NCBI GenBank assembly: GCA_021234155.1
Contig: JAJEKV010000013.1
Location: forward strand, 8,567,193 to 8,631,192
Source: Isoetes taiwanensis
Taxonomy: Eukaryota > Streptophyta > Lycopodiopsida > Isoetales > Isoetaceae
DNA: 64,000 nt
Reading direction: 5' to 3'
Shown: positions 33,824-61,530 of the stretch, one piece after another
Layout: every line of letters begins with the position of its first letter
How positions within the stretch are numbered: position 1 is the stretch's first letter
Notes under the pieces: model-generated
Databases searched by the model: none
Told to the model about the DNA's origin: nothing
The model's input: only the letters and a program-made list of their open reading frames with translations
Program-made: the position numbers and the translations under genes

Positions 33824-36800
33824 ATGAATGGAGGTTTTAGGGTACAGGGTTTAAAGCCAGATCAAGCCATGCCTCGGTTCATTGCCCAGGAGGAGCTGTC
33901 CGATGATGGGGATGCAGAAGAGGACGAGATGGAGCCCGACGAGACTGAGTTTTATGATGATCCTGATGTTTTCTCCGTGGAGGACGAGGATCAAATAGAC
34001 ACCGGTTAGTTTCTCCTTCTTGGCTAGTTTCACAGCTCCAGTTGATTGTTTAATTTGGTTTTATTGCTAATTGTACTTGTCGGAACTATCAGAAGAAAAC
34101 AATGCCGCAATGGCATCTGCAACCGGTGTGTTGGACGAAGACATGCAATCTCTTTTGATGGGCCTTTCTTCAAAAGATGATAACATGCTGATGGATGCAA
34201 TTTCAAGAATGCGCTCAATGCTGGCTTCCGAACAAGGAGCCAAATTATTACAAGAATACGTATTAGCATCGCCCAAATGCGTGGAGCTATTGGCTATATG
34301 GGAGAAAGGCACTAAAGCTATTACCACTATCCCATTGATGCTCTTGTTGTGGACCATGTTTCGCCACCCTGCAGGCCTCAGAAATTCTCAAATCCAAGAA
34401 GCTGCAGAGGAATGGAAACGAAAGTTGGCTATCCAGCTACGAATTGATAAGTTTGCACTACATATTCTGCATCATAAATTACCTGATATTTATTCTCTGC
34501 TTTCGTCAAATCATCGCTCTAGAGAAAATGCAGCTCTTAAAATTATGTCAGCGATAGTGTTGAGGGGAAGGTTGCTTGGAAAAGAAGTTGCTTCAAAATT
34601 TGATTTTGGCCTGGATGCACTTCGAAGGCTAGCCAGACATCATAACAAGATGAATGCAACACCATCTACTGACATCCTCAGACTGCCATCTAGAGTTGCC
34701 TTTATTGAATTTGCTGTGTCATTTCTCGAGGTTGGAGACCTTGGTCTTTTAAGATGGGTTCTTCAGAAGCGGAGCTTGTATGCTGGTCTCTTACATGGCA
34801 TTTCAAAAGATGACGAGGAGACATGTGTGAAGGTTTTGACAATGATACAGAAGAAAATATTATCCCCAACTATGCACATCCCAGTGGGGGTAAAGGTTGG
34901 CATGTTTGGTGACATAGCATTGGATCAACTTTCTCGGATCACTGCAGATTCCATGCGGCTGGAGTCTGGGGATCTTGCTCATAATATTCTCTTATCTCTT
35001 TGCACTGATCCATCCCATGGTATCTGTCCAGAGATTGCTCAATGGGATTTGTCACTTAAAAGCAAAGGTCTGTATGGAGGTGGCCAAGGGAGGTTGCTAC
35101 GGCTTATGGCCCGACTCAAACCCACTGGGATTGCTAGACATCGTGAGTTGTTGTTAGCAATTGGAAAAACTAGACCAGTTCTGGCAGCTGCATATATAGA
35201 TTCATCTCCCTTCTCCATGGAGCCACGTGATACCCCATCTTGGTAAAGTTGCGCTCTTTTACAGGATCAGTTTACCTTATTATGGTAATAAGAGATGCCT
35301 TATTGCTTATATTGACATTTGGCATGTTTCTCTGCAGGTATTCCAGTATGTCCCTTATTAGTTCGTTGATTTCAATTGCAAACGTAACTCCTCCATTTGT
35401 ATCGATGGCTCAAGATGGGGTTCCACCACCTGAATTTGAGTCCTCCATCATCCAATGCAATCTCCGACGTATCTGGCCACGTAGCCTCTCTCGGGTAGCA
35501 CTCAATAGGGGCCTCCTTCATCAAAATCTTCTAATAAAGCATGCCTCTTTGAGATTGTTACTTGAAATTTTAAAATCTTTACGAGATTTGTTAACCTCAA
35601 TAACAGCTGCTGCAGATGCATCCAAGGGGTTCATAAAACATGGAATCAATGGAAAGGACTCTGGGCACAAGGTCCAATTTACAGATGGGTCTGAAAATTT
35701 CTTTGCAAAACAGAATAATAAACCTGCAGGAGAAGATGAGAATGGCAAACAAATGTGGTTGGGGCTCCATACATACTTTCAGGATAACATGCGTATGCTT
35801 CTGCCAGACTGCCATTCGCTTTCATCAATCTATAGTGCGCTGAAGAGGGTTACTAAAGGGGACAGTTTGAGTAGCAATAAGGCTGCAGGCAAGAAAAGGA
35901 AAAGAGATGGCAATGACGTGGAGGAGAATGAAGATACTTCAGGATTAGCAGAACTGGAGGAAATATGGGGGTTGGATTTGAAGTCTATCGGGCAGGAAGC
36001 AAATGTGTGTACAAATTTGCTTCTGACAAAAATATTAGAAGTGTTTACACTCTATCAGGTGGGTTGGTTTAAAGCACTTTTATGTTTTATTTCTTTGATA
36101 TTAACTTGTCTTTGCCTTTAGGAAGCGATACCACTTGCTTTGACAGATGCGAATTTTGACGCATTTAAGTTTGTGCCTGATGATCCAAAGACACTCACCT
36201 GTTTGCAGCGAAAAGCTTTACTGGGCTTACTGCTAGCTGTATCTGGCTATTCGACTTTGCGGGATGATAATCCAGTAGGCACTTCTAACAGTCTGCCACT
36301 TTTTAGACACATGAAACTATTATTAAAGTTATTGTCAGGACCAATAGAAAGGGAGGTCAAGGAACAGGTCCAGCAACTGTCATGTCTAGCAATGTCAACC
36401 ACTGGTGCATTTGACAACAATGCAATGGAGGTCATTGTGTGGCTCCGGTTCTTACCATGCTGGAATACCTGGACATTCAAGGATGAAATGAACACCACCA
36501 CCACAATATGCATGGTCCATGCTTTTGAAGAAGATATTGTTGACTTTTTGTGTGATGCGGTATACAACGTAGGAAAGAACATGTATAAATATTTGGAGGA
36601 ATTGCACTCCATTTTTTCAAGCCATGCCCTGGAGAATGCAAGTGCTGAGAGTCAAGGTTGGTAGCATCCTGGTTTGATTTCAATATTTATGGCTCTTTTT
36701 AAACAATTTCTCATTGCATCTGCTACAATGTTGAAAATAATCTAATCTTATTGCTTTGTTTCTCTGCAGCGAATGGTTATGGTCCATTGGTAATATCTGC

Positions 36801-52186: not shown

Positions 52187-52214
52187 CTAGTAATGGTGCC
52201 CAGCATTCCTGGGC
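52187..52214 (-). mobile_element. Helitron 3' terminus, minus strand
   Basis: On the minus strand: hairpin GCCCAGGAATGCTGGGC (52214-52198), then ACCATTA, CTAG (52190-52187), then T. The layout is the same as the end at 22559-22586. The element therefore extends to the right, possibly taking in the polypyrimidine tract. Its 5' end was not found. Confidence 0.78.
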
Positions 52215-52319
52215 ATAAGTTGGGAATCTGTGTGGACGAAAACCTATTCAGCTCAGACTCCTCATAATTCTAATATAATAGAAACCAAGCCCAGCATTGT
52301 TGAGCTGTTTTTGTGCATT

Positions 52320-53664
52320 CAACATCCTTCCTCTTCCCTTTGCCTTTTGCTCTATTCCACATTTCCTTTTTTCCTCGTTTTTCCTACACACTTTCCTTTT
52401 CCTTTTTTTTTCTTATTTTTCTTATACGTCTTTTTTTTCCCTTCTCTTTTTTATTTTCCCCCTTTTACCCCTTTCTCCCTTCTCTTCCCTTCCCTTTCCC
52501 TTTTCCCTTTGTCCCTTCTCTTTTTTCTGACGAACGTTTTCCCTTCTCTTTTCATCCTTTCCCTGCCCTTCCCATTTTTCCCCTTCCTTTTCCTTTTCAC
52601 TTCCCTTTTCCTATGCCATTTTTTTGTTCTCTTTTCCCCACCTTTTCATGTGCCCCCTTTTCTTCCTTTCCTCGTCCTCTTCCGCTTTATGCCTTCCGCT
52701 TTATCCCTTGCCCTTTTCCGCTTCCCATTCCTCGTGTCAATTTTCCCATCCCTCCCCCCTTTTCTGTCTTTCTTTTCTTTTTTCCTTTCCCTTCCCGTTT
52801 TATTCTTTCACCACACTTTCGCTTTTCCCCGTGCCCTTTTTCCCTTTTCTTTCCTTCTTCATTTTCATTTTCTCTTTCCCGATGCCTCTTTCCATTCCCT
52901 TTTCTCTACTTTTTTTATATGCCCTTTTTTCTCCTTTCCCCACCCTCTGCCTCTTTTCCATTTTTCTCTTTCCTTTTTTTCTTTTTGCTTTTTCCCATGC
53001 TCTTTTGCGCCTTTCCTCATCCATTTCCTCTTTCTTTTTTTCGTGCCCTTTTCCCCTTCCTCTTTCTCTTTTTCAATTCCTTGCTCCTCACCCTTCTCCT
53101 ATTCCCTTTTTCCCCCCTCCCTTTTTCTCCTTTTCTGACCATTTCCCTCTTTTCCTTTTCTCGTTTTCCTGGTGCATTTTTTCCTTTCCGTTTTCCTCCT
53201 TTTCCCATTCTTTCCCTATTCCTCTTTTACCCATGCCCTTTTTCCTTTTCTTTCACCCTTTCTCCCTTCCTTTCCTTTTCCCATGCCCTTCCCATATTTT
53301 TTCTCTCCTTTTTTTTATGCCCGTTTTTCTCCTTTCTGCCACCCTTTCCCTCTTCCCCTTTTCTTTTTTCCATGCCCTTTTTTCGCTTCCAGTTTTCCCT
53401 ACCTTTTTCCTCTTCCTTTTTTTTTATCATGCCTTTTCCCTCTTCCCTTTTCTCATTTCCCTCTTTCCTTTTTTCTAATGCCATTTTTCCAAGTTCCATT
53501 TCCTCCTTTGCCCCTCCCTTTTTCTTTTTCCTTCTATTTTCCCCTTTTCCACGCCTTTTTTTGCTTCCCTTCTCCACATCCTTTTCTTGTTCCCCTTTTT
53601 CCCTGTCCTTTTCCTCATTTTCCCCCCTTTTCCTTCCCTGCCTTTTCTTTTACCCTTTCTCCAT
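52320..53664. repeat. 1.35-kb polypyrimidine tract, degenerate minisatellite
   Basis: Almost every base on the plus strand is C or T, broken by rare ATG, CATG and GTG islands. Phrases such as ATGCCCTTTTTCC and CCTTTCCCTCTTCCC recur with variable spacing, suggesting a decayed tandem array. The long open frames it creates (473 codons plus, Phe/Pro/Ser/Leu only; Lys/Arg/Glu/Gly on the minus strand) are composition artefacts, not genes. Confidence 0.92.
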
Positions 53665-54188
53665 AAGAGATCAAAACATGACCAATCACGGTGGTAGGAA
53701 GTTGTGCGAGAAATCGGCCTTTGGATGCACCTAGATAATCTCGGTCATTCAAATTAGGGCTTGATCCAATCCAAGACTTATGGTATAATGAAACGGCGTG
53801 TTTGAAAGATTCCTTTGAAATTTTGAAAAATTAAAAAAATCAGACAAAATATGGAGCAAGTATATTTCCGGCCACATGTTGTCCAGCACTTTCCCTAAAA
53901 ACAACATTTTTAGAGTTATTTAATATACGTGAAAAGACATAAAAAGGGACCTTTTTAAAAGGTCAAACGAGCATTTATGAGAGCCACAGAAATTTCTGTG
54001 GCAAAAATACATGTAAGTACAATAGGTTCATTTGCATATTGTGTGTGAATGTCTTTGTAATAGCAGTTGCAAAAGATGTATTTGCAGAGCAGAAAAAAAA
54101 GTTGTTCAAGTTAGAAGCAGATAAAGAAGCATACGCCATAAGCTACCGGTGCTACTATTGTCACCCTAACTATACATTCAAAACCAAA

Positions 54189-54480
54189 CGTATATCGAGT
54201 TAGATATACTACGTATATCGAACTCGATATACAAATATACAGCGTATATCGAGTTCGATATACGACGTATATCGAGTTCGATATATGACGTATATCGAGT
54301 TCGATATACGGCATATATCGAACTCGATATACGATTTTTTTTTTTAATTTTTCGATTACGGCGGTAGGAAAATTCCGTATAATACACAAAATATAAGCGT
54401 CATTTTTATACAATTATACGGCATATATAGCGTATATCGAACTCGATATACGCCATATACGTATATCGCACTCGATATAC
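54189..54480. repeat. Palindrome array 1 (about 8 units)
   Basis: Eight near-palindromes with 9-10-bp arms (TATATCGA.. / ..TCGATATA), six in a row and two more after an AT-rich gap. They differ mainly at the centre (GT or AC) and in one or two arm bases. Confidence 0.92.
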
Positions 54481-54553
54481 GCTACCCGATTTTGCATCTC
54501 TTTCAATCTACCTCACAATAAGTCAGATTGAAAGAGATGCAAAATCGGATAGC
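54481..54553. repeat. 29-bp-stem hairpin
   Basis: Left arm 54481-54509 and right arm 54525-54553 are complementary with one mismatch around a 15-nt loop. The arms contain CGATTTTGCATCTCTTTCAA and its inverse. The hairpin directly abuts palindrome array 1. Confidence 0.93.
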
Positions 54554-55227
54554 ATATGTATTATGGGTTGTGTAAATGCAGATGTTTAAAGATGTCTAAT
54601 GTCTTTCTTTACGAATGTCAACAGTTAAAAAGACAATGAGCCAAAAGTGAAGCAAATGGACTATTCCATCATGTTCTCAAAGAACATTGATCAGGCCAGT
54701 TTTCCATATGTCAAAATTACTGGCTGGTAGTATAACAAAGAGTAAAGTAGCTAAATAACTCCATCACCATTCTGCTGTAACCCAGCTTCACCAGAAAAAT
54801 AAAACAAGAACTCTTGCTTATCTGCCATAGAATAGTCCGGCAAACGGAATAATCTGCCATTGGATCCAGGCCTGCAGATGAGATAGTATGGCATCGCCCA
54901 CCATCAGGAATAAGCTAAATGAAACATACTTTATGATCTTCCCTTCTTGTTCTTCAAGAGTTGGATCATCTTGGCGCCCAAAATAGGCAGAGGTAAAGAG
55001 CAGGCACATTGAATCGGCTGACTGGCATCAATCCTTGAAACGAAAATAGGATGTCACAAAATACAGCAGGATAGCAATGCCAGAATAGGCTCAGATCTTC
55101 TTGCAAATGGGCTATGGCAAAACTGTATCATAGCGGCAAATATGTTGGGCGCCGCACTGGTTCGCCATTTTCTAGTACAGACTAGCTCCGAAGAACCCGA
55201 AAAAAACATGCATATAAAATTGATATA

Positions 55228-55393
55228 TGGTAGTATATCGAGTTAGATATACTATAGTATATCGAGTTCGATATACTATTGTATATCTAACTCGATATAC
55301 TACTAGTAGTATATCAATTTTATACACTTTTTTATACGCCGTTATACGTATATCGAGCTCGATATACGCCATATATCGAGCTCGATATACGCA
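55228..55393. repeat. Palindrome array 2 (about 5 units)
   Basis: Five units of the same type. Two have a perfectly symmetric centre (TATATCGAGCTCGATATA). It mirrors array 1 at the other end of the element. Confidence 0.9.
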
Positions 55394-55584
55394 TGGTTTC
55401 GAATGTTTAGTTAGGGAGCCAATACCCGATAAGCTACCATTTCAAAAATCATTAATAAAATGTGGTACAATGTATCTTCTGCAAAAGATCTATAAATACT
55501 GGTACATAAATAAGTGGTATGAAAATGTTCTACCCTTTCAAAAGACAGGACCGTCGTTTAAAACTAAAAACTGTCCGTCTATAT

Positions 55585-58641: not shown

Positions 58642-61200
58642 TTACTCTATAAACATCTTCAAAGCGGTGGCATATGCATTTGACATAAGCACATAACCAG
58701 CATCATAATGAGGATCCAAATTAACAATTGCATTAAAGCATTGTCCGCCTAAGGTGACATTCTTGTGTATTTCACAAGCACTAAGAAGAGTTGTCCATAG
58801 ACAGAGATCAGGTTGCAAAGTATCTTTCACAAGGCCACCTGCTTCAACAAAATTCGCTTGACGGCCTAGAAGATCCACTAGACATGTGACGTGATATAAA
58901 TCGGGTTCTATGGAATGAAAATCTTTCATGGTTTTGAAATGATGCATGGCTTCCTCGACTAGCCCCACTCGACAAAATCCAGTCAGTACAAGATTCAGTG
59001 CTACTGCATCCACTTTAATGCCTGACTGCTGCATGTTCTCAAAACACTGCACAGCAAATTCAGCATCACCTTTTTGGGCATAGCCAGCAATCATTGCATG
59101 CCATGATATAGCATCTTTATTGGGTAAGTTGTTGAAAATTCTCCAAGCTTCCTTCAAGCTCCCACATTTAGCATGCATATCAATAAGGGCATTGCCAAGG
59201 ATAATATCTGATTGGAGCCCAAACTGAAGAAACTGCTCCTGTATCTGTCTGCCCTCCTCTATAGCACCAATAGTACCACATGCATTCAGAACGACCAAAA
59301 AGGTGACCTTGCTTGGTGCTATGCCATCTTGCTGCATATTTTTGAAACAGTCTACTGCAAGTAAGCCTTCACCATGCTTGGCATATCCAGCAATCATAAC
59401 ATTCCAAGACACCACATCCCGTCTCACGATTCCATCAAAAACTACCCTTGCTTCATCCAACTTTCCACATTTAGAGTACATGTCAAGAAGGGTGTTTCCC
59501 ACAGCATTGTCAGACTGAAAACCACACTCAATGATCTCTTGGTGGACGTGCCTGCCTTGCTCTATGTTATTTAAGTTACCACAAACTTTTAGAGTACTTA
59601 AAATGGCAGCTTTACCAGGTTTTATGTCCTCACCCTTCATTGCATTGAAACATTCTAGGGCATGATAGCCTTCGCCATGCTGAGCATAGCCTGCAATCAT
59701 AGCACCCCATGACACATGGGTTCGGTTCACCAAATTGCTGAAAACATGACGTGCCTCTTCCAAGCTCCTGCATTTTGCATACACATCAATTAAAATGCTT
59801 CCTGCCACCTCACCAGATTGCACCTCATTATCAATCATCTGTTCATGGACATACCGCCCATTTGGTAAAGCACATATGCTTCCGCATGCTTTCAAGCTGC
59901 TCAAAAACGTCACTGTATTATCCTCTCCTAGACCCTCAAACTTCATGCTCTGGAAGCATTGCAATGCAAGGAGGCCTTCGCCATACTCAGCATATGCTGC
60001 AATCATTGTGCTACGTGCTATGACATCCTCTTTAGCCAGTCTATCAAAACTTTTCTGCGCTTCCCTCAAACTTTTACATTTGGCATACATATCAACAAGG
60101 GTACTCCCCAGCATAACATCAGAATGCAATTCACTTTGAAGAATCTCTTCATGGACTTGCCTGCCTTTGTAAATGGCACCTGTACAAGTGCATGCCTTCA
60201 AGGCACTCAGAAATGCACCTCTATCTGATTTTATTCCCCTTTGCTGCATACTCACAAAACACTCTAATGCAAGGTGTCCTTCACCATACATGGCATACCC
60301 CTCAATCATTGTACCCCACAATATCACATCTCCATTTGGCAAATGGTCAAAAACTTTGCGGGCTTCTTCTAAGCATGCACATTTTGCATACATATCAATG
60401 AGAATACTACCCACGACAAGATCAAGTTGAAGTCTTTTCTCGAGTATCTGCTCGTGAATGTGGCGGCCCTTCTCAGTAACACCAAGAATGCTGCAAGCTT
60501 TCAAGGTACTCGAGAATGTCATTTTATCTGGTTTTATGCCCTTCTGCAGCATAGTTTCGTAACATTCTAAGGCAAAAAGGCCTTCACCTTGTTGGGCATA
60601 TCCTGAAATTATTGCACTCCATGACACCACATCTTGATTAGGCAAACTGTCAAATACTTTCCTGGCTTCCTCCAAACACCCAGACTTTGCATACATATCA
60701 AGAAGAGAACTTCCTACCACTACATCGGATTGGAGCCCAGTGACTATAAGATGGTTATGAATGCTCCTTCCTTGAGTTAAGTTACGTGTACTACTACATG
60801 CTCTTAGTATGCTAGGAAATGTAAATTTGTCTGGTTTTGCATCCTGAGTAGTCATTGTATAATACAAATGAAGGGCAGTTTCGCTCTTACCAAGTTTAGC
60901 ATGTCCACTAATAATTGCATTCCATGTATACTGGTCGGGTTTTGAAATCCTGTCGAATACGTAATTTGCTTCAGCAATATTTCCACCAGAGGCAAACAAA
61001 CGGACAAGACAGTTAGCCAAGTAAGAAACTGAATCAAGCCCACTACGAAGCATAAGGGAATTTACTCGCCTGCCAAGTTGAGCATCTTGCAATTTTGTGC
61101 ACTCAGCGAGCATCCGATGTGCAAGGGGCTTGGAAATGCTATGCCTGGCAAATGCATCGTCCAACCATTCTGGACATTGGACCATGATCATGAAGCTCAT
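58642..61200 (-). CDS. PLS-class pentatricopeptide repeat protein, E1 and truncated E2, no DYW
   Basis: Intronless 852-residue protein of the organellar RNA-binding PPR family, typically an editing factor in plastids or mitochondria. It starts with an L-S pair (about residues 23-89). Six P-L-S triplets of ~101 residues follow, with P motifs such as DVVSWSAIISGYAQQGEG and S motifs such as GSILIDMYAKCACLEEARKV. Then come P2-L2-S2 and an E1 motif (LWTTLLSACEIHKNVTLGGQ). E2 stops early after YVLMSNAYATALKMFIE, so the rest of E2, E+ and the DYW deaminase are missing; if it edits, a DYW partner must act in trans. The ATG at 61200 gives almost no transit peptide. However, the frame is open about 31 codons upstream to a TAA, with an acceptor-like GTGCCAG near 61279, so a spliced 5' exon could supply targeting. 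Confidence 0.92.
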   Translation of the reverse strand: MSFMIMVQCPEWLDDAFARHSISKPLAHRMLAECTKLQDAQLGRRVNSLMLRSGLDSVSYLANCLVRLFASGGNIAEANYVFDRISKPDQYTWNAIISGHAKLGKSETALHLYYTMTTQDAKPDKFTFPSILRACSSTRNLTQGRSIHNHLIVTGLQSDVVVGSSLLDMYAKSGCLEEARKVFDSLPNQDVVSWSAIISGYAQQGEGLFALECYETMLQKGIKPDKMTFSSTLKACSILGVTEKGRHIHEQILEKRLQLDLVVGSILIDMYAKCACLEEARKVFDHLPNGDVILWGTMIEGYAMYGEGHLALECFVSMQQRGIKSDRGAFLSALKACTCTGAIYKGRQVHEEILQSELHSDVMLGSTLVDMYAKCKSLREAQKSFDRLAKEDVIARSTMIAAYAEYGEGLLALQCFQSMKFEGLGEDNTVTFLSSLKACGSICALPNGRYVHEQMIDNEVQSGEVAGSILIDVYAKCRSLEEARHVFSNLVNRTHVSWGAMIAGYAQHGEGYHALECFNAMKGEDIKPGKAAILSTLKVCGNLNNIEQGRHVHQEIIECGFQSDNAVGNTLLDMYSKCGKLDEARVVFDGIVRRDVVSWNVMIAGYAKHGEGLLAVDCFKNMQQDGIAPSKVTFLVVLNACGTIGAIEEGRQIQEQFLQFGLQSDIILGNALIDMHAKCGSLKEAWRIFNNLPNKDAISWHAMIAGYAQKGDAEFAVQCFENMQQSGIKVDAVALNLVLTGFCRVGLVEEAMHHFKTMKDFHSIEPDLYHVTCLVDLLGRQANFVEAGGLVKDTLQPDLCLWTTLLSACEIHKNVTLGGQCFNAIVNLDPHYDAGYVLMSNAYATALKMFIE

Positions 61201-61530
61201 GAAAGAATTCGAAATGTTTGGATCCGCATCATCCCTTTAAGGCTACTTGATCCATCCCAATTAAGATCCAGGTTTCTGGCACAGACGATTTAATTACACT
61301 GTGACCGAGCAGCAATAAGCAGGTTTACTTCAGCCAAGGGATGGGGCGGGCAAGCGTTTGAGCAATCTCGTATGATTTTAAACCTAGAGACCATTTCACT
61401 TCTTTGAGGTATTCAGTGCATGGCCTACATAATAAGCTACCTATTGTGTGTATCTATTATTTGCCTCAGAAGGATTTCATTGCCCATTTAAATTGTTCAT
61501 TCATAGAGCAATGTTGTGCATCTTGTAAAC
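61201..61530. other. 5' flank of the PPR gene
   Basis: Probable promoter or 5'UTR side of the minus-strand PPR gene. The PPR frame stays open to a TAA near 61292. No clear core promoter motif could be chosen. Confidence 0.4.

Follow-up and report, generated by a model that had tools for sequence, protein, structure and literature searches.

Palindrome arrays at the ends of a predicted Mutator-like transposon family in Isoetes taiwanensis

Subterminal repeat arrays are already known in Mutator-like elements (MULEs), from the parts used here of the reports on Muta1 (PMC5225508) and Tm1 (PMC3169594). The family presented here, F1, shares with Muta1 and other Aedes aegypti MULEs a transposase (in F1, a predicted MULE type), a target duplication of 8–9 bp and short subterminal repeats inside the tip, and the Aedes elements also have derivatives with variable repeat numbers and captured fragments (PMC5225508, in part). 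However, in the same portion of that report, Muta1 carries 9–15-bp tandem repeats and a 10-bp imperfect palindrome at the tip only, whereas the 20-bp unit of F1 is itself palindromic and differs between sister families. The Tm1 Mutator/Foldback elements of root-knot nematodes have a 9-bp duplication, one terminal motif starting with CGGT and a variable repeat number in inverted ends, but their repeat is a 13–15-bp tandem unit with a non-palindromic consensus, and their transposase is Phantom-like (PMC3169594, in part). VANDAL elements resemble F1 in their family-specific motif arrays in non-coding DNA, which diverge between relatives; their motifs, however, lie in one orientation and are bound by an accessory anti-silencing protein, VANC, and such a gene was not recognised in the examined F1 copies (PMC5735166, in part). 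VANC binds its family-specific arrays and counters silencing, and is the nearest functional alternative (PMC5735166, in part). CACTA elements (Tgmt*, En/Spm) have palindrome-capable subterminal repeats, proposed as protein-binding sites, that diverge between subfamilies, but are distinguished by CACTA tips, a 3-bp duplication and a separate TnpA-like protein (PMC2613891, in part). The nearest structural precedent for dimer binding is offered by piggyBac and piggyBat, which have subterminal palindromes: in piggyBac structures, two transposase C-terminal domains bind one such palindrome. They belong to another superfamily, however, and carry a few palindromes, such as the three imperfect ones of the piggyBat left end, compared with up to nine in an F1 array (PMC11707139, in part).

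Among the open-licence papers listed in our searches, we found neither MULE arrays of 20-bp palindromes that differ symmetrically between sister families nor a report of Mutator-like elements with Isoetes. To our knowledge, how a MULE transposase tells its own family from close relatives in one genome is little understood; we know of no named plant family with a palindrome-array design, and the F1 element fits the Mutator superfamily. The related tips and different palindromes of F1 and a sister family, F2, would make family recognition testable by simple swaps. If their symmetric differences reflect protein-DNA co-evolution, that history could be read from them, and the CpGs of the units, being prone to decay, may connect recognition with silencing.

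Bounds, insertion and interior of the window element

The window is the whole 64,000-nucleotide stretch of I. taiwanensis DNA that was analysed, and the features of the F1 element within it are listed in Table 1. An earlier note on this DNA had the location right at 54147–55417, but the true bounds are slightly wider, 54147–55428; this assignment rests on ends common to 45 two-ended copies, a 9-bp duplication and two empty paralogous sites. The element starts with CGGTGCTACTATTG and finishes with GGGAGCCAATACCCG. The inverted ends with CCCTAACT(A/T)(A/T)ACATTC that the note described are present. The inverted arms of the window copy extend over 82 nt and are 83% complementary; across F1, the left and right tips are related, not identical.

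Table 1. Positions of the F1 element and its parts, counted from the first base of the window.
Feature	Position	Strand	Remarks
Predicted non-autonomous MULE-type element, family F1	54147..55428	+	1,282 bp; orientation as in transposase-carrying copies
Left target-site duplication ATAAGCTAC	54138..54146	+	Single copy at uninterrupted paralogous sites L074, L075
Right target-site duplication ATAAGCTAC	55429..55437	+	Direct repeat of the left one
Left terminal sequence CGGTGCTACTATTGTCACCCTAACTATACATTC	54147..54179	+	Inner 24 bases (consensus TTGGC) used for the left-end count
Right terminal sequence	55401..55428	-	Ends CCAATACCCG; most other examined copies end CCAATATTTTACCCG
Left array, six 20-mers	54190..54332	+	Starts 54190, 54213, 54244, 54267, 54290, 54313
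Two further left units	54432..54480	+	54432-54451, 54461-54480
Inner right array, three units	55233..55300	+	Starts 55233, 55257, 55281
Outer right array, two units	55348..55390	+	55348-55367, 55371-55390; rare centre GC
Acquired interior	54513..55159	+	Matches to other genome loci

The two window flanks, joined without the element, were used as an empty-site query. This query gave a continuous 95% match over 404 of 449 bases in two places on contig C1073, and an 89% match over 392 bases in a third. In the alignment of the first two, one ATAAGCTAC lies exactly at the junction. Thus, the window element is an insertion at a formerly uninterrupted site.

The interior of the element is found elsewhere in the genome. 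Its segments 54513–54757 and 54821–55159 match loci on C996 at 83–84% and 93%, with further matches on C930, C1041 and C1047; it is also present in two other F1 copies, namely L052/L002 (C1047) and L003 (C1018, interrupted). Two source open reading frames from L005 had no Pfam match above cut-off, and the window copy has no recognised transposase. In this respect the element appears similar to a Pack-MULE. A separate 33-bp inverted repeat (54477–54509 and 54525–54557; 94% complementary, 15 bp between arms) sits where the left array meets the acquired interior.

The F1 family and its palindrome arrays

The I. taiwanensis genome (1,658,258,908 bases in 1,110 contigs) was searched with the unit and the ends, a check that the earlier note had proposed, and many loci with a defined 9-bp duplication were recovered. 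The left-end pattern, which also catches right ends, had 164 matches over both strands (control 0), 83 of which, counted from the listing, are left-type ends with at most one mismatch. We analysed 45 F1 copies whose two ends were seen within about 7 kb, leaving out wider pairs (e.g. on C922, C963 and C1080), C1007, C1097 and two of four C1077 copies. Both ends were recovered in all 45, the right end of the window copy being set by allowing for a short indel. The target duplications match at 9/9 positions in 31 copies, at 8/9 in five, at 7/9 in four and at 4/9 or fewer in five; a flank match of at least 7/9 is thus seen in 40 of 45 true pairs, compared with 6 of 1,980 pairs mixing flanks of different copies. 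Not all 45 are independent insertions, since L042 and L043 lie in repeats 12 kb apart on C1077 and L026 apparently has the same flank as L014. Four 0.5-kb F1 copies lie between 271 and 316 kb on that contig (G000:C1077:271097-316200), apparently spread by segmental duplication.

The F1 unit is a 20-bp palindrome, GTATATCGA-GT/AC-TCGATATAC. The earlier count of about 13 units in two clusters holds for the window copy, with eight on the left (54190–54480) and five on the right (55233–55390), each 20 bp long and mostly 23–24 bp apart; all 16 core arm bases are present in nine and a single mismatch occurs in the other four. With up to four arm mismatches allowed, the 45 copies contain 523 units, of which 213 have no arm mismatch. 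After a single base shuffle, the same elements (97,384 bases) yielded 11 matches at this threshold. In the 1.66-Gb genome, TATATCGANNTCGATATA was found 370 times, compared with 3 times for a reversed-pattern control. The palindrome arrays are therefore beyond chance. Their placement is regular: measured from the left terminus, the start of a unit falls at 44 ± 1 bp in 44 of 45 copies, and 41 copies have a unit start at this distance from the right terminus. Copies carry 2–9 left and 1–8 right units, at spacings mostly of 23, 24, 29 and 31 bp, and at least two left units and one right unit are kept in 45/45, including four copies of only 498–575 bp. Helical phasing was considered and dropped by simple arithmetic on these F1 spacings and those of close F2 units (23, 27, 33 and 36 bp, read by eye). 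The earlier remark that the units vary at the centre needs correcting, as this variation is not free: 492 of the 523 units have AC or GT there (10 have GC), in an almost fixed orientation at each of the eight tabulated array positions. Departures in a single arm cluster, with 376 of 515 falling on the outer G or on the C or G within the TCGA step.

The arrays look constrained, the units being roughly tenfold less diverged than the spacers outside CpG. For 22 copies that share one five-unit layout on the left, the units diverge from the column consensus by 0.010 outside CpG, compared with 0.099 for the spacers and 0.016 for the tip, and none of 10,000 unit-spacer column permutations reached the observed difference between units and spacers. 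With three left units, in 36 copies, the values are 0.008 and 0.109. The copies were picked for recognisable units, which somewhat lowers unit divergence (0.016 with the loosest left filter). The test at the right end rests on two to four spacer columns, with p from 0.004 to 0.047: three units in 16 copies gave 0.007 vs 0.078 (p 0.0036, four spacer columns), the loosest filter 0.043 vs 0.118 (p 0.015), and two units p 0.035 to 0.047 (two spacer columns). A perfect unit contains two CpG, and the CpG positions in units diverge by 0.087, compared with 0.010 for non-CpG positions, which would fit methylation followed by deamination.

The earlier note also proposed that arm symmetry is under constraint, and this is not supported from the F1 units. 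Symmetric double changes at the CpG cytosine number 15, where 3.0 would be expected if the arms were independent, but there are 12 vs 15.1 expected at the neighbouring G and a weak excess at the two outer bases (14 vs 9.2 and 2 vs 0.3). Compensatory arm change within F1 is thus not convincing, the clear excess being limited to the CpG cytosine. In 34 of 44 copies, one and the same imperfect palindrome forms the outermost unit on the left. The evidence for symmetry comes from the sister family, F2.

Partner transposases, sister family F2 and a proposed role of the palindromes

Parts of a transposase core were found in four (L009, L048, L049 and L051) of the five F1 copies of 5.8–6.7 kb; the fifth, L050, is a shorter element whose right end is split by about 4.5 kb. 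The examined long copies are broken by stops, frameshifts or inserts. PF10551 (MULE) was matched in three loci, L048 (E 3.5e-4), L049 (2e-4) and the F2 element L056 (overall range 2e-4 to 1e-3), all below the curated cut-off, with the catalytic residues read by eye. PF21056 reached 29.6 bits in L056 (cut-off 27.2) and stayed below cut-off in L048 and L049, while the SWIM zinc finger PF04434 scored 22.3 bits in L009 (cut-off 19.6) and a sub-threshold 17.8 in L056. A second gene was not recognised in these decayed copies, with Pfam applied to ten L009 open reading frames and a few others; one of the L009 frames has a zf-RVT match below cut-off, taken as a retrotransposon remnant. A search of one F2 transposase segment against solved structures gave 0 matches.

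The Mutator superfamily is marked by a target-site duplication of about 8–11 bp, and that of F1 is 9 bp. This duplication, with the transposase-core and SWIM matches in the partners, places F1 in that superfamily, and the window element is a predicted non-autonomous member with an acquired interior. The CGGTGC...ACCCG termini and the 9-bp duplication of F1 do not fit CACTA, with its CACTA/G termini and 3-bp duplication. VANDAL elements are not known to have terminal inverted repeats, whereas the F1 ends are inverted. A SWIM-type zinc finger has been reported for one MULE family (PMC5225508, in part). In a FastTree tree of the transposase core from 13 loci, whose rows were projected from tblastn matches and are in several cases broken or partial, support is 0.987 for F1 and 0.807 for F1 plus F2.

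The transposase search returned relatives at 57–67% identity and lower among the matches listed, and two of these, L055 and L056, define F2. The F2 tips are CGGTGCCTTTTTTGGCTCCC and, at the other end, CGGGGTCTTTTTTGGCTCCC, compared with CGGTGCTACTATTGGCACCC and CGGGTAAAATATTGGCTCCC in F1, the two families being alike by eye at 15 and 14 of 20 bases. The F2 tip pattern, with up to two mismatches, has 439 matches over both strands and both end types (control 1). Perfect 9-bp duplications flank L055, L056 and L068 (CTTAAGTTT, CTACCCAAG and TGATGCCAC), and L067 has 8/9. The palindrome is AAAATCGCTTAAGCGATTTT in L055 and AAATTCGCTTAAGCGAATTT in L056. Since three aligned coding-region blocks of these two are 90–97% identical despite their different palindromes, no transposase change matching the new palindrome was identified.

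The F2 palindrome, also written AAAWTCGCTTAAGCGAWTTT, differs from that of F1, both arms switching together. With the core TCGCTTAAGCGA fixed and A or T beside it, there are 1,230 sites genome-wide (control 5). The bases flanking this core pair as A...T in 780, T...A in 393 and mixed in 57, where about 554 mixed would be expected if the arms were independent, these counts being of related copies and not of independent events. To reach a symmetric state, both arms must have changed and the changes must have been retained or copied; array homogenisation could have spread them. Ten further F2-core loci were picked from the first sites among the matches listed: the tip pattern finds both ends in L067 and L068, one end in L064, L065, L066, L069, L071 and L072, and none in L070 or L073. 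Since no F2 end was found in L070, which holds GGGTTCGCTTAAGCGAACCC plus a hybrid unit GGGTTCGCTTAAGCGAATTT, it is not established as an F2 element. The centre is TTAA in 44 of 53 arm-pattern units from twelve F2-type loci, ten of which were chosen for that core. Between F1 and F2, the tips are recognisably related, the palindrome is different and both arms have changed together.

We consider that the F1 palindromes are probably binding sites for a dimeric element-encoded protein, most plausibly the transposase, and the transposase-binding sites that the earlier note listed as one option are adopted, with somewhat better than even confidence, as the best reading. The units keep a fixed distance from the tip, persist in minimal copies, diverge little and have dyad symmetry, which together suggest sites for a protein dimer on duplex DNA; the transposase is the simplest candidate binder, since the examined long copies revealed no other recognisable gene. 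Each palindrome would accommodate two protein molecules, several dimers would assemble on the array inside each tip and bring the element ends together, and the palindrome would give each family its own address. Several observations argue against this reading: the AC/GT centre of F1 lacks symmetry, and the first left unit, though conserved, is an imperfect palindrome; within F1, symmetric excess is clear only at the CpG position; L055 and L056 combine closely similar coding regions with different palindromes; and distant relatives carry arrays of other motifs or none that was found. More tentatively, this lycophyte MULE clade might use two-layer end recognition, with slow tips for the catalytic part and a palindrome array for dimers of a faster-evolving domain. 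The address might then have changed symmetrically on more than one occasion (half-sites GTATATCGA, AAAATCGC, AAATTCGC and perhaps GGGTTCGC), keeping co-resident families from mobilising each other.

That F1 is a mobile family, as the earlier note suggested, is borne out by its dispersed copies with consistent ends, target duplications and end-sharing partners with a decayed transposase gene. The note would have favoured a local rearrangement for a single locus or for copies with no consistent ends or duplication; since consistent ends, duplications and partners were found, neither describes F1. A rearrangement, or a replication or recombination signal in place of a transposon, has next to no probability left: nothing in the analysis favoured it, and the dispersed copies with distinct 9-bp duplications and the empty sites refute a rearrangement. 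It is unlikely that the units serve a separate regulatory or anti-silencing protein similar to VANC, or control the transposase promoter, and not assembly of a transposition complex. Such a role would agree with the family-specific, fast-evolving motif arrays that are VANC targets in VANDAL MULEs (PMC5735166, in part), with the left units of L009, which lie inside the tip but ahead of position 1132, where its transposase is presumed to start, and with methylated sites, the two CpG of each perfect unit being its most diverged positions. However, the arrays occur at both ends, with a constant offset from the tips, and even 0.5-kb copies retain them; a second gene was not recognised in the examined long copies (decayed and with partial Pfam coverage); and VANC21 motifs are arrayed in one orientation (PMC5735166, in part).

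The variable unit number and the spacing mostly of 23–24 bp would also be expected of functionless tandem expansions from a chance palindrome. This origin is improbable, given that non-CpG divergence is lower in units than in the interleaved spacers, that the distance from both tips is fixed and that a sister family has another palindrome near its ends. Action as RNA, through hairpins or small RNAs from array transcripts, has a slimmer chance still: fold-back is possible for the units and for the inverted ends, and the asymmetric F1 centre would suit a loop, but most of the examined F2 units are symmetric through TTAA, which a loop does not need, a weak argument as most of those loci were picked for the core.

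Distant relatives and neighbours in the window

Generality was sampled with ten relatives hand-picked from at least 158 matches listed; 150 of 821 candidates were scored. Of the ten, L055 and L056 are built as F2 elements, and L058 belongs to F1. In five others (L054, L059, L060, L062 and L063), the arrays consist of other motifs, with no perfect palindromes and no F1 or F2 tips by the pattern used; no array was found in L057 or L061. L059, L060, L062 and L063 carry GGAAACC(T/C) and its complement in arrays near one or both ends, often at about 22-bp spacing and partly as inverted pairs; the arrays of L054 are of GTATTCGAC.

Elsewhere in the window, a pyrimidine-rich tract of about 1.5 kb (approximately 52200–53700) reaches 90% C+T per 300 bases. 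It is open in several frames, which would encode mainly F/L/P/S-rich peptides. On the minus strand, 58642–61236 is a single open frame of 864 codons with pentatricopeptide repeats (PF13041, 11 stretches) and an E-motif match below its cut-off. An open frame at 34071–35246 matches Npa1 (PF11707), of ribosome 60S biogenesis, and this gene may also include further long frames downstream, as far as about 44.9 kb.
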